A DNA stretch of 53,245 nucleotides from Candidatus Onthousia excrementipullorum (GTDB lineage: Bacteria; Bacillota_I; Bacilli_A; RF39; UBA660): the NCBI GenBank assembly GCA_018712385.1, contig DVHC01000027.1, positions 1 to 53,245 on the forward strand, in the 5' to 3' direction. Of this stretch, positions 6,701 through 25,756 are shown in pieces. The notes beneath the pieces are model-generated. The model ran no database searches and was not told the origin of the DNA. It saw only the letters and a program-made list of their open reading frames with translations. The translations under genes and the position numbers were made by a program. How positions within the stretch are numbered: position 1 is the first letter of the stretch; every line of letters starts with the position of its first letter.

Positions 6701-8293
6701 TTATTGAAGTTCAATCTCAAACGGATCTGATTTAGTACCTGTTCCTGAGGTTATTACAACGTTAGATTTTAGATTTAAAGAAGGCCTAATATTTCTTTTA
6801 GTGGCTATATCACCAATATAAACTGTTGCTGACATAATAGAATATTCATTAATATAGGAAAGACCAATACTTCCACCACGTGCATATACCTTAGTCAACA
6901 TCCAGTAAACACCATTGCTATCGCCTATGTCTGATTGACCAGACATTAATTCGCCATATCGAAGTAATCCTATTTTTGCTTCAATACTATCAGCATATCC
7001 TGACATATTTGTGTCTATATACTTTGCTAATTTATATGATCTACCATCTCCTACTTTTCCTAAATACCAAGTCGTACTATCTTCTATAAAATTAATATAA
7101 TCATTACCTACATAACTTGTTAGATATTCTTCATTTAAGAACGTACCTATAGTAGTCATACTTGAATAATCTGAATTATAATTGGTATCGAAAGCAATAG
7201 TTTTAAAGACACCATAATCCTTTAACGGTTCAGCACTTACTATTTTTGTTCCTGTTCCATCTTCATGACTTACAATTCTAAATAAGTTATTTTCTCCAAC
7301 ACCAAAAGTTATATATTCTCCACTATATCTGCTTGATAACAATGTTCCTGATAGATTTGTATCACTATCACCTTCCAAACGATATGGATCATTTTCTGTC
7401 CCAATACCGTCGATTATCCTTACACCAGATTTTAAGTTTATTGATGGACGTATACCATAATAAATGTAAGAAGAATTTTGATAACCTGTGGCACCAGTAG
7501 ATTTGATGTAACACACATCGTATGTACCATAAGGTGTTAAAGTCCACCATTGAAGTCCATTATTTAAATAGCCATTAGTACCACCGTTATTGCTAGACTG
7601 ATACTCATACATATTTAAAAGTCCTACTGCATCTGTTACTGTTGTTGTGGCATTAGGCCTTGTTATACTTCCTAAATCTCTATCATCCATAGTTGCATCC
7701 CATACACTATCTGTTACTATAAACTTATCTGGATCTCTTAAATTTCCTAAAAAACCATCTACACTTGTATCATTTAACCATTCTTTCATATAACTTTCCT
7801 CAAAGGCAGAATTACCACTCGAAAATTCAATTACGCTTTCATTCCATTGAGTTACTAACTTAGTTGTCTTTGCTTCATTATTTACACTAACCGCTCTCCA
7901 TAACTTACCACTATACCAGATATAATTATTAGGGTCTTCTCCTGTTATAAAGGTATCTGTTCCATCATCATATTGGTTATCTTCTGGTATATTAGATAAT
8001 AGTACTTCACTAGCAGGCCCTGTTGCTACAGGCATCTTATCTCCATCTTTACCATAGACATTTATCTGTACACTAAATTCTAAATTTCCTCCATCTCCTT
8101 GAGGATTATAATCTTCATCTACCCACATTCTAAGTCTATATCTATTACTCTCACTAGAGTTCATACTACTTGTATATAAACTCATCTCTCCTGATGGTCT
8201 TCCTGTATATGTATTTTCACTTGTCTCTTCATTATATGTTTCTGGTGTCATCAATTCTTCTTCACCATCATCTGTTAATCTTGTTAAATATAA
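6701..8293 (-). pseudogene. 5'-truncated surface protein with repeated DUF6273/FGE-like modules
   Basis: C-terminal remnant of a paralogue of the large surface protein at 23.9-25.8 kb. Both share GTLLSSRYSGEYI, WYSGKLWRAVSVNNEAK and IRPSINLKS blocks. The reading frame stays open upstream of any good start, to about 8293, where a stop arises at the insertion-sequence boundary. The signal/TM anchor and N-terminal beta domain of the paralogue are therefore lost. Two modules remain, each ending in a tract that corresponds to the variable repeat of the paralogue, but these tracts have ordinary AT-rich codons. Without a signal peptide or ribosome site it is probably not expressed as a surface protein. 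Confidence 0.8.
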
Positions 8294-21851: not shown

Positions 21852-22670
21852 TTACATCAACATTTTAATATCTTTTTTCTTTAAGCCAGTATAGTTCATT
21901 ACTTTACTAACGCTTTCTCCTGCTTTTAGCATAGCCTTAGCGATAGATTTTCTCTCATCATTAGCACCTTCTTTTCTACCATCACTTCTTGCAGAATTTA
22001 TCTCTTTTCTATGCACTATCTCAGCATCATAGTACATACCAAATTTATCATCTAATCCTAATTGTTTTAACTTTTCCATAATTATTTTACCCTCCTTTAA
22101 ATCTCCTACTATTCTTTCCATTTCTTCATAAGACTCTGCTGTTAACATAGATAAATATGTTTCATATTTATTTGTACCATCATAGACAATGCCTTTATAA
22201 TCTTGTAAATCTATAGTAATTATTCTTACATCTTTTAAATAAGCTTTAGATTTATAATCTTCTAACTTATAATCATTTCCATTCCATTTCTTTACTCTAG
22301 TATCTTTTATTTTATTATTTAGATTTATTTGCGTAACAAATCTATGATAATACTGCTCCCCTGCTAAATAACCATTACCGGCCATTCTTAAAGCATATTT
22401 GATGTTCTTTATCATAGTATGAGCATAAACATCTTGATTAAATTCTAAGTTAACGAGATGATTCTTATTAAGAAATATCGTATCTGCTCTATAATCTTTA
22501 ACTTTATTACCAGTATTAAGTTCATTATCTATTGCTATATAACTCTTTAAATCAATACCAGTTACAAATTTAATAAAATCTTCATAAAACCATTTATAAT
22601 GGTCATCTTTAATTAAAGCTTTAGCAGTTGTATCAGACATTAATGATATAAATCTTGGTACTTTATTCAT
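21852..22670 (-). CDS. Rpn/PD-(D/E)XK nuclease family (transposase-like) protein
   Basis: Member of the PDDEXK_2/Rpn group, DNA endonucleases linked to recombination, 272 residues. The nuclease core shows the Asp in YRADTIFL and the ExQ-type motif in LVNLEFNQD (about 70-90). The C-terminal third is the usual family tail, ending in repeated charged helices with ERKSIAKAMLKAGES. The ATG at 22670 follows AAAGGGGGAAC and is preferred over upstream in-frame starts. A second, partial copy lies at the right window edge. Three hairpins sit upstream and may regulate it. Confidence 0.85.
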   Translation of the reverse strand: MNKVPRFISLMSDTTAKALIKDDHYKWFYEDFIKFVTGIDLKSYIAIDNELNTGNKVKDYRADTIFLNKNHLVNLEFNQDVYAHTMIKNIKYALRMAGNGYLAGEQYYHRFVTQINLNNKIKDTRVKKWNGNDYKLEDYKSKAYLKDVRIITIDLQDYKGIVYDGTNKYETYLSMLTAESYEEMERIVGDLKEGKIIMEKLKQLGLDDKFGMYYDAEIVHRKEINSARSDGRKEGANDERKSIAKAMLKAGESVSKVMNYTGLKKKDIKMLM

Positions 22671-22715
22671 AAAGTTCCCCCTTTCTGCAATAGATATAAC
22701 ACAATCAAAAAAACA

Positions 22716-22800
22716 TTGCAAAAAGGCAATTTTGCAAATTCACCCCCAAAATAGGGGTAAATTTTCAATTTTCACCGGGTGAAAATACAAAATTCACCCT
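22716..22800. promoter_or_regulatory. Cluster of three short hairpins with TTCACC repeats
   Basis: Three adjacent inverted repeats occur: TTGCAAAA / TTTTGCAA (22716-22737), ACCCC / GGGGT (22742-22758) and ATTTTCACC / GGTGAAAAT (22768-22786). TTCACC recurs four times. The cluster lies upstream of the Rpn-type gene and could be an operator array or a stacked structure. Confidence 0.45.
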
Positions 22801-22917: not shown

Positions 22918-23115
22918 TTAATCAAGTATTATTTTTAATATTTGCAAATAATATTTTATATTCTTCTTCAGTAATTTTCTTCTAGTCTTACTAATAATTC
23001 TTCTAGAGATTTTATTATTCTTAGTAGTTTTATATTTATTATTAATATTTAAAACTATTCTTTCAGTAATAGTATCTATTTCTTTAAGTTTATTTTCTAA
23101 AACAAAACTACTCAT
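22918..23115 (-). CDS. Small basic protein of unknown function
   Basis: 65 residues, strongly lysine- and isoleucine-rich, helical, no membrane segment. I do not recognise it. Its ATG overlaps the end of the 112-residue gene by 8 bp, which suggests translational coupling, although the ribosome site is weak. It could bind nucleic acid given its charge. It sits between the Rpn-type gene and the DGR template repeat, but no link to either can be shown. Confidence 0.45.
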   Translation of the reverse strand: MSSFVLENKLKEIDTITERIVLNINNKYKTTKNNKISRRIISKTRRKLLKKNIKYYLQILKIILD

Positions 23116-23446
23116 AGAACTTATCCATCTTAGAAATAATATCTTCTATATTATCTAGATATAAACAATTCTTTAAGTTAGTAAATAATTTATCTATTCT
23201 ATTAGATAACTTACCATATCTTAGATATATAGAATATTTATTATCAATAAAAGTAACTACATCATCATAAAAGTAATTGATATGACATTTATTAAGTAAA
23301 GGTATTACTTTATTAAGAGAATTTCTTTCTATATAAAATGTTTCTTTATAAGGTTTATCTAATAAATAACTAACTATATAACTATCACTTTTATTTACGT
23401 AAATCATTACTCCTTTACGCATAAAATAAACTAAACTGTTATTCAT
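23108..23446 (-). CDS. Uncharacterised 112-residue protein
   Basis: Not recognised. It has mixed alpha/beta character with many Tyr and Asn residues (KCHINYFYDDVVTFIDNKY) and no signal or membrane helix. A GGAGAG site lies about 10 bp before the ATG. It is the gene nearest to the DGR template repeat. I checked whether it could be an Avd-type accessory protein: it lacks the expected four-helix pattern, so I do not call it that. Confidence 0.5.
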   Translation of the reverse strand: MNNSLVYFMRKGVMIYVNKSDSYIVSYLLDKPYKETFYIERNSLNKVIPLLNKCHINYFYDDVVTFIDNKYSIYLRYGKLSNRIDKLFTNLKNCLYLDNIEDIISKMDKFYE

Positions 23447-23728
23447 ATATTTAACACTCTCCTATCTTTCCCTTAATGTACCAAAAAAAATCAAGCATAT
23501 TTGTAAATTTATGTGTTTTACATAAATTTACAATATTACTTGACATAAACTATTGGACTAATCTTTCCTTTAGTTTTATAGGGTAAGATAGTGTATAAAT
23601 AGTTTCATAATAATTTATTACAATTCTATTATCTATCTAGTCTTTAGTGTCACTACACAAGGAAATTACCTATTCCTTTTATCTATTCTATATAGTTATT
23701 AACCATAATGCTAGGTTTAAAAGGAAAT

Positions 23729-23818
23729 GCCGCACGCCGTTCGAATTGCTCGAAGGCGAATTGTTGTTCGTGTTACCATTGTTGTTGACATACCGAACGT
23801 TTGACGAAGATTTTGGTG
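23729..23818 (-). other. DGR template repeat (TR)
   Basis: A 90-nt tract, far richer in GC than its surroundings, matches the variable repeat at 23992-24081. In the 58 nt next to the shared GGCGTGCGGC end (23729-23786) there are six differences, all at adenines of the template strand (four A to G, two A to T). Read in the target frame it is loaded with Asn codons (NNNGNTNNN), which become Ser, Tyr or Ala-yielding codons in the target. This is the DGR signature. The 32 nt at the other end also differ at non-adenine positions, so recent exchange seems limited to the end nearest GGCGTGCGGC. The rest of the 23447-23905 gap shows nothing else. Confidence 0.82.
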
Positions 23819-23867
23819 ATTCCCTACTATAATTTATTTTAAACTAATTATAGTCATTATTAATTCA

Positions 23868-23903
23868 GTCAGGAAGAAGAAAATACATTTCCTTCTTCCT
23901 GAC
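23868..23903 (-). terminator. 12-bp hairpin after the DGR target gene
   Basis: GTCAGGAAGAAG and CTTCTTCCTGAC form a perfect stem with a 12-nt loop, two bases past the stop codon. No T-run follows. DGR targets often carry a hairpin downstream of the variable repeat that aids homing, so it may serve that role, act as a terminator, or both. Confidence 0.65.
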
Positions 23904-23905
23904 AA

Positions 23906-25756
23906 TTAGCCTCCTAACTGTATTTCAAATGGTGAATTTAAGGTTCCATCACCATTTACAATCTGTGCGTTAGATTTTAGATTTACAGATGGCCGCACGC
24001 CGTACGAACTGCTCGAAGGCGAATTGTAGTTCGCGCTACCATTGTTGCTCACGCGACGCACGTTAGACGTACTATATGGTGTTAAAGTCCAATAAGATGT
24101 ATTATTACCATATCTATCAAATTGTCCGGACATTAATTCTCCTAAACGGAGTAAGCCAACTTTAGCATTTGTACTTTTAGCATATCCTGACATATTAGTA
24201 TCTGTATATTTTGCTAATTTATATGAAGTACCACTTCCTACAGTTCCAAGGTACCAAGTTGTATTATCTTCTATCATTGAACTATAACTACTATCCACGT
24301 AATTTGTTAGATAGTCGCCATTTAAAAATGCTCCTATAGTATTACTACTTGAAAAACTAGTATTACTTCCAAAGGCACTTGTTATAAAGGTTCCAGAACT
24401 CTTTAATGGTTCGGCACTTACTATCTTTGTTCCTGTACCATTTTCGTGACTTACTATCCTATATAAATTATTTTCATCATTACCAAATTTTATGTATTCT
24501 CCACTATATCTACTTGAAAGAAGTGTTCCTGAAAGATTAGTATCATTATCTCCGTTTAAGCGATAAGGGTTATCTATTGTTCCATCACCATCTACAATTT
24601 TAACGCTAGATTTTAGATTTATTGATGGCCGGACACCGTACGCGCTGGCCGAAGTATTGAAGCTCGCACCGCCATCGCTGTACACGTAACGCACGCTAGA
24701 CGTACTATATGGTGTTAAGGTCCACCATATAAGTCCATTATTTAAATAACCATTTGTTCCTCCATTATTACTAGATTGATATTCATACATATTAAGTAAT
24801 CCTACTGCATCTGTTACAGTTGCCTCCCCATTTGGTCTTGTTATACTTCCTAACCTGGTTGCATCCAATGTCGCGTCCCATACTGCATCTGTTACAATGA
24901 AATTCTCATAATCTCTTAAATTACCTAAGAAACCATCAACACTTGTATCATTTAGCCAGTCTTCCATATAACTTCCTTCAAATGCTGTACTACCACTTGA
25001 ATAATCAATTGCACTTATATTCCACTGGGTTACTAACTTAGTTGTCTTCGCTTCATTATTAACACTAACCGCTCTCCATAACTTTCCACTATACCAGATA
25101 TAGTTATTAGGGTCAGTTCCTGTTATAAAGGTATCTACGTCATCATCATATGTACTTTCATTATCACCTAAGTTTTCTAATACTACATCACTAACTTTCT
25201 CTCCTACTGGCTGTGTTGCAACTACTCTTAACTTACCTTTAAATGTCTTACCACTTGCTTCCTCAGTAGTTGCATCATAATCTATCCATATTCTTAAAGT
25301 ATAATTAATAGTCTCATCGACAGCTACAGTACCTGTATCTACTACTCTATTAGGATTAACTCCCATACTAGTTAAATCACTAGCATTACCTACAACATTA
25401 TCTTTAGTTAAACTATATCTAATTGCAGAGTCAGGCATCCTAGTCTCACCTTCATCTAATTCTATATCATCTAAATAAATAGTGAAATCAGTATCAATAT
25501 TACCTTCATTAATTAAACTAAAGTTAAAATCATCTAATTTCATACCTTCAGAATCTTCTAAAGGTATTTGTTTTTCTAATGTAAGTTCATTACTTTCTTC
25601 TAGCCTTAAACCTAGGCTACCTGCTCTTACTAAGTACTCCTTATCACCATGTAGAGTTGTTGTAAGATATGCAAAAGCTATACCTAGAAGAAGTAATACT
25701 ATAATAACAATACCTATTATAATAATCTTTTTATTATTTTTAATCGCTTCTTTCAT
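23906..25756 (-). CDS. DGR-diversified surface protein with repeated DUF6273/FGE-like modules
   Basis: Cell-surface protein, 616 residues, with a membrane anchor or signal at 8-31 (IIIIGIVIIVLLLLGIAFAY). Next is a TasA/camelysin-like beta domain (about 40-190), then two modules of about 200 residues. Each module begins near FITGTDPNNYIWYSGKLWR or the related LLSSRYSGEYIKFG and ends in a variable tract followed by YGVRPS-NLKS. Both variable tracts use GC-rich codons unlike the rest of the gene (VR2 and VR1). The C-type-lectin-like end is typical of DGR binding proteins. The target ligand is unknown. It is transcribed alone, from a start with GTAAGGTG. Confidence 0.85.
   Translation of the reverse strand: MKEAIKNNKKIIIIGIVIIVLLLLGIAFAYLTTTLHGDKEYLVRAGSLGLRLEESNELTLEKQIPLEDSEGMKLDDFNFSLINEGNIDTDFTIYLDDIELDEGETRMPDSAIRYSLTKDNVVGNASDLTSMGVNPNRVVDTGTVAVDETINYTLRIWIDYDATTEEASGKTFKGKLRVVATQPVGEKVSDVVLENLGDNESTYDDDVDTFITGTDPNNYIWYSGKLWRAVSVNNEAKTTKLVTQWNISAIDYSSGSTAFEGSYMEDWLNDTSVDGFLGNLRDYENFIVTDAVWDATLDATRLGSITRPNGEATVTDAVGLLNMYEYQSSNNGGTNGYLNNGLIWWTLTPYSTSSVRYVYSDGGASFNTSASAYGVRPSINLKSSVKIVDGDGTIDNPYRLNGDNDTNLSGTLLSSRYSGEYIKFGNDENNLYRIVSHENGTGTKIVSAEPLKSSGTFITSAFGSNTSFSSSNTIGAFLNGDYLTNYVDSSYSSMIEDNTTWYLGTVGSGTSYKLAKYTDTNMSGYAKSTNAKVGLLRLGELMSGQFDRYGNNTSYWTLTPYSTSNVRRVSNNGSANYNSPSSSSYGVRPSVNLKSNAQIVNGDGTLNSPFEIQLGG
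23992..24081 (-). repeat. DGR variable repeat 1 (VR1)
   Basis: 90 nt near the 3' end of the surface-protein gene, aligned without gaps to the template repeat at 23729-23818. Asn codons of the template appear as AGC, TAC or AGT, and one ACG as GCG. The match ends at GGCGTGCGGC, the expected initiation site for mutagenic homing. Confidence 0.82.
24628..24714 (-). repeat. DGR variable repeat 2 (VR2)
   Basis: 87 nt at the end of the first module, homologous to VR1 but one codon shorter and with its own fixed codons (ACT TCG GCC, GGT GTC CGG). Codons at positions variable in VR1 are TAC, AGC, GAT, GGT and TTC, all reachable from AAY by changing adenines. Its template is not in the window. Confidence 0.7.

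Follow-up and report, generated by a model that had tools for sequence, protein, structure and literature searches.

Introduction

The diversity-generating retroelement (DGR) of BPP-1, with its bRT, Avd, template repeat (TR), spacer, IMH and cruciform, transfers sequence from the TR to a variable repeat (VR) with adenine-specific changes and depends on Avd and a reverse transcriptase (RT), as does the family of cassettes considered here. The likeness extends to a structured spacer directly 3′ of the TR, a GC-rich end common to both repeats and a hairpin just after the VR, as well as to the short 5′ homology that is all that BPP-1 transfer needs (PMC3240598, PMC12875486). In the Bordetella DGR, the spacer in the equivalent position recruits RT-Avd and primes cDNA synthesis (PMC12875486), and the target requires the hairpin, whose stem structure rather than sequence matters (PMC3240598). 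Unlike in BPP-1, however, avd and the RT gene have been deleted from the locus described here, and a single target protein contains two VRs. Moreover, the sequences of its spacer, hairpin and MSL gene bear no relation to the BPP-1 DGR, the parts of which act in trans only in laboratory constructs.

Action in trans is, as a concept, already known from remote VRs and from the incomplete loci of Thiohalocapsa. Thiohalocapsa PB-PSB1 (PMC10907252) resembles our case in that its genome contains several DGRs and incomplete loci thought to be served in trans, and Treponema denticola and cyanobacteria (PMC4891356, PMC7517822) in that the target genes lie far from the RT. Yet in Thiohalocapsa the trans cases draw on the TR of the complete locus, and the remote targets of Treponema denticola and cyanobacteria have no TR of their own, whereas the present locus retains a TR and spacer RNA of its own, the proteins alone being absent. 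Genes of the MSL (MutS domain I-like) type are a named class of DGR accessory genes (PF01624; PMC10053308), and here, too, a small gene of this type belongs to a DGR operon, although its family, unlike the PF01624 members, is too diverged for a direct Pfam match. Remote targets escape RT-centred DGR searches (Roux et al. 2021, PMC8144416); because such searches begin at the RT and look nearby, cassettes devoid of an RT are missed. We describe such a cassette in a 53,245-nt stretch of DNA (hereafter, the window; contig C70) from the 1.50-Mb draft gut MAG of Candidatus Onthousia excrementipullorum (G000), and compare it with its relatives in the genus, all of them draft MAGs, with one genome per species.

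Results

The target gene and its repeats

The target gene (23906..25756, minus strand) encodes a 616-aa variable protein with an N-terminal membrane anchor and two DUF6273 modules (Pfam, E 1e-11), each ending in a VR. The variable repeat of the second module, VR-C (23992..24081, minus strand), sits at the C-terminus of the protein; the AlphaFold model of the module is too poor (pLDDT 33) for its fold to be judged. Two-module DUF6273 surface proteins are encoded at about 16-17 paralogous loci of the 1.5-Mb genome, most of them without a TR or hairpin, and in some (e.g., on contig C23) both VRs still share a template that has been lost. Beside transposase-like fragments on C23 (L018 6960-7022), a TR remnant is severed after about 60 nt by an insertion. 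The window itself contains a second DUF6273 target-like gene (6707-8179, minus strand), whose VRs are AT-rich and seem to be old; no TR adjoins it.

Read on the minus strand, the TR (23729..23818) aligns with VR-C without gaps over 90 nt, with 18 differences, 10 of which fall on the 29 template adenines (Fisher p=0.02). The two repeats share a 10-nt, IMH*-like end, GGCGTGCGGC (23729-23738 in the TR, minus strand), and in the 58 nt beside this end 6 of the 20 adenines but none of the 38 other positions differ (p=0.00096), the substitutions in VR-C being four A>G and two A>T. The 58-nt boundary was chosen after the data had been seen, so that this p-value is soft on its own, and it is the related loci that settle the question. 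The original prediction, which had reported the ungapped match and the six adenine-only differences among 58 nt with 20 adenines, is reproduced in both respects, and its estimate that chance would produce such a pattern about 0.2 percent of the time errs, if anything, on the cautious side, given the somewhat stronger recomputed value. The label VR1 attached to this repeat has to be dropped, however: the sequence is the second, C-terminal VR, and the first, VR-N (24629..24706, minus strand), recognizable by sequence comparison, had been overlooked. The local TR does not explain VR-N, which differs from it at 14 of 24 adenines and 12 of 50 other positions.

The distal 32 nt, i.e., the 5′ part of VR-C, differ from the window TR at 6-8 of 23 non-adenine positions, compared with only 1-2 of 23 for the TR form found on contig C1 of the same genome and in genomes G022, G026 and G005. 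To judge from these alignments, the 5′ part of VR-C has a source other than the present window TR. The C1 TR was considered as the source of the whole of VR-C and ruled out: VR-C carries the private features of the window TR, TTCGCCTTCGAGCA.TTC, including the 3-nt insertion that makes this TR longer than that of C1. The 5′ part of the window TR is, for its part, old, since it is common to the TR of G009 (see below). The simplest reading is that VR-C is a mosaic: it was first rewritten from another TR and later, near the initiation end only, from the present one. This fits the earlier proposal that homing copied only the end nearest the initiation site, given that distal VR-C resembles another widespread TR form and that the G009 VRs match the shared 5′ part fully.

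Directly 3′ of the stop codon of the variable protein, and hence just 3′ of VR-C, lies a hairpin-forming inverted repeat (GTCAGGAAGAAG..CTTCTTCCTGAC; 23868..23903, minus strand), a candidate target-recognition cruciform. Across cassettes, the sequence of the stem differs while pairing is maintained, i.e., the stems covary; the hairpin is present in TR-bearing cassettes, and is missing or broken behind most variable protein genes without a TR.

A structured spacer RNA

The region adjoining the TR (23486..23728, minus strand) corresponds to a spacer RNA with nine conserved helices, defined by covariation, that ends in a long hairpin and T-run (23483-23543, minus strand). Over 21 loci, 97.1% of cells in the nine-helix structure are paired and 8 pairs have changed on both sides; not one of 500 shuffles reached the covariation score, which collapses once the pairing partners are slid. 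The window copy retains all helices, with compensatory changes. In its own genome, the spacer occurs only in the window and on C1 (88% identity between the two), and it was found in most species of the genus. The Rfam search returned no match for it, and the motif was absent from the viral contigs searched.

Deletion of the local avd and RT genes

On the far side of the spacer from the TR lies an intact small accessory ORF of the MSL type (112 aa; 23108..23446, minus strand), 87% identical to its C1 copy, with a dN/dS of 0.13-0.27. Its class was assigned via a homologue on contig C75 (MutS_I, E 4.8e-6; window family versus C75, hhalign probability 86). The AlphaFold model (pLDDT 47) is too poor to use, and chemoreceptors, the only matches of the MSL profile in the PDB search, were dismissed as spurious.

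Alignment to the intact C1 cassette shows that 1,075 nt are missing from the window, so that the RT has been cut out locally and is not merely remote. What is left of avd is its first 96 nt (23020..23115, minus strand), fused to the last ~75 nt of the RT gene (22945..23019, minus strand), which follow in frame. The resulting 65-codon fusion of the Avd start and RT end (22918-23115, minus strand) is probably meaningless. Neither an RT nor an Avd gene thus survives at the locus beyond these 3′ and 5′ remnants, and we accordingly call the cassette a non-autonomous DGR derivative.

Beyond the deletion lies a gene of the Rpn family (PD-(D/E)XK; 21852..22721, minus strand; weak match to NCBIfam TIGR01784), which is 82% identical to, and matches in position, the gene behind the C1 RT; it is probably a neighbour and not part of the DGR. 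Rpn-family genes recur immediately 3′ of the RT or target genes of DGRs (window 21852-22721, L008 6855-7736, L010 6105-7025 and C55:27906-28586); of the roughly 11 to 15 Rpn matches in this genome, at least four are so placed.

An intact cassette and other RTs in the same genome

The genome contains five RT genes, three of which (on C1, C58 and C75) have a target gene, an Avd-like ORF and a small ORF as neighbours. The C1 cassette is paralogous to that of the window and complete, with intact MSL, Avd and RT genes and the same downstream Rpn-type gene. Its RT (C1:19943-20890) carries the YMDD and DGR-type SQ motifs and has as its nearest solved structure 8ub7 (E 1e-18), which we take to be the RT of the Bordetella phage DGR; its Avd matches the phrog 'Avd protein of DGR' (E 6.6e-6). 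With this complete RT on C1, the genome possesses the enzyme that defines a DGR while the window cassette does not, and the cognate RT of the cassette lies elsewhere in the same genome, as expected of a DGR acting in trans. The search for a DGR-type RT and Avd across the genome, which had been proposed as a check, has thus found a cognate pair. That no RT is present in the window holds true as well, although the fused avd and RT remnants at 22945-23115 had gone unnoticed.

C58 (L009) and C75 (L010) are two more complete DGRs, with unrelated spacers. On C58, all TR-VR differences fall on TR adenines; on C75, the best TR candidate (68% identical) is downstream of the RT. The RTs on C49 and C13 look, from their sequences, like group II intron RTs and were left aside.

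RT-less cassettes in related genomes

Adenine-only TR-VR pairs are found in many sister cassettes, with p down to 1e-9. The most instructive of them, on contig C20 of G009, has the order hydrolase - variable protein - TR - spacer - terminator - DedA, and no MSL, Avd or RT gene was found in it. Its TR is 97% identical to that of the window and has the same 5′ part. Compared with this TR, its two VRs differ at 13 and 11 of 24 adenines, respectively, and at none of 53 other positions. Both VRs also carry substitutions private to this TR, GAGC>GAGT and GGCG>GGCA (C>T, G>A), and have therefore been rewritten from it after it gained them. This pattern strongly suggests that homing took place once the local RT was gone. 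G009 has just one close RT, on contig C78, and there MSL is preceded by sequence that is no spacer, the contig ending about 120 nt upstream of MSL; the RT-less cassette appears to borrow a remote enzyme.

In G014, which has no cognate RT, a cassette with this RT-less layout occupies the same chromosomal site; helix 1 of its spacer is broken, and TR and VR differ at 7 of 52 non-adenine positions. Drift between TR and VR at non-adenine positions, too, is common to G014, G006 and G008, none of which has a detectable intact cognate RT. There are exceptions to this rule: the cassette on C33 of G030 has an intact local RT yet 13 of 56 non-adenine differences, and TR-VR mismatch is also seen on C50 of G024 and C39 of G001, whose genomes do have an RT. 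Because of these three cassettes, the link between the presence of an RT and the match of TR and VR is only suggestive. In G024, the VR on C50 (L092 / L145) does not fit the adjoining TR but shows 0 of 50 non-adenine differences from a TR of the G012/G021 type, a fit that is another sign of templating in trans. The C39 cassette of G001 is a relic, with an independent avd-RT deletion and losses in the TR, spacer and MSL gene; one old deletion common to it and the window was ruled out, given that the breakpoints differ and that further losses are seen in G001.

The content of the site between DedA and hydrolase (L138, L136) varies among species: G009 and G014 have the RT-less cassette of variable protein and TR there, G012 has a target-like gene, several further species have an unrelated gene of ~300 aa, and in the window genome the site is empty. 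Rewriting by a local TR was also considered for the solo variable protein genes at the RecD2 site of other species and ruled out, there being mostly no TR at that site. The cassette on C8 of G015 (L135 4146-10785) is host to two RIT-like operons, each with three tyrosine recombinases, and its TR is broken at GCGAATTATAAGACATGTCTTATAATTCGC, with the identical junction found on C106 of G032.

Discussion

Our analysis supports the view that the TR and VR in the window are a DGR repeat pair without a working local RT, as originally predicted, and adds that the cognate Avd-RT is present in the same genome. The window cassette is a DGR derivative whose RT has been deleted and which is no longer autonomous. 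The original prediction left it that the RT must act in trans or be lost; this stands as an either/or, and the evidence, drawn from one genome, leans to the former. Given that the local enzyme has been deleted and that a near-identical intact cassette exists elsewhere, the window copy probably borrows the C1 enzyme. We consider it likely, on the strength of these comparisons, that the C1 Avd-RT uses the TR-spacer RNA of the window and still does so. In this scheme, the target is a cell-surface protein with two putatively lectin-like DUF6273 modules. As the sequence shows, the TR and adjoining structured spacer RNA have persisted, and a single internal deletion has removed the local avd and RT genes. 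The TR-spacer RNA would be loaded onto the Avd-RT from the C1 cassette and, by analogy with the known DGR mechanism, copied with random bases opposite adenines, whereupon the cDNA would replace part of VR-C starting at the GGCGTGCGGC end, as the observed pattern suggests. In the latest such event, only the ~58 nt nearest this end appear to have been replaced.

Alternatively, the locus could be a recent fossil, in which its own RT diversified VR-C before avd and the RT gene were deleted and which has been silent since. The deletion is real, and relics are known, namely, the C39 cassette of G001 and the C23 TR shortened by an insertion. Nevertheless, the spacer, terminator, hairpin and MSL ORF of the window are all intact, the last 58 nt are free of non-adenine drift, unlike in the relics, and the RT-less G009 cassette looks active, all of which makes us regard this scenario as rather unlikely. 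Still less probable, in our view, is a mixed population, in which VR-C is diversified in cis by those cells that retain an intact local RT while the MAG shows the deleted variant only. Such a situation has been reported for DGR 3 and 7 of Thiohalocapsa PB-PSB1 (PMC10907252), and MAG assembly shows one haplotype; however, there is no intact variant in the window assembly, and the RT-less G009 cassette would be left unexplained. Finally, that the repeats are diverged copies of a coding repeat, shaped by ordinary mutation or gene conversion, could be argued from just 10 of the 18 differences across the 90 nt being at adenines, but is scarcely tenable in the face of a cognate RT, Avd, MSL, spacer RNA and hairpin, and of the adenine-only pairs in the sister cassettes.

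Returning to the borrowing of the C1 enzyme, a broader scenario, which we put forward tentatively and hold to be a little less probable than its negation, is that the DGRs of the genus have split into a trans enzyme operon (MSL-Avd-RT) and RT-less satellite cassettes at new sites, all served by one Avd-RT via the common spacer RNA. Such a satellite cassette would comprise a target gene, hairpin, TR, spacer RNA and terminator, and would be akin to non-autonomous transposons that use the enzyme of a full element.

In the open-access literature, we found no description of a locus without the proteins that nonetheless retains a TR and spacer of its own; with moderate confidence, and as far as that literature goes, the protein-less cassette with its own TR is a new variant of DGR. 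The defined spacer RNA provides an RT-independent handle for finding such cassettes, and leads us to predict that a single Avd-RT can draw on several templates to diversify several surface proteins. The window and C20 cassettes are natural test pairs for the RNA requirements of the enzyme. More generally, these loci offer a view of how a DGR repertoire grows and decays in a gut bacterium whose small genome encodes about 17 paralogous targets.
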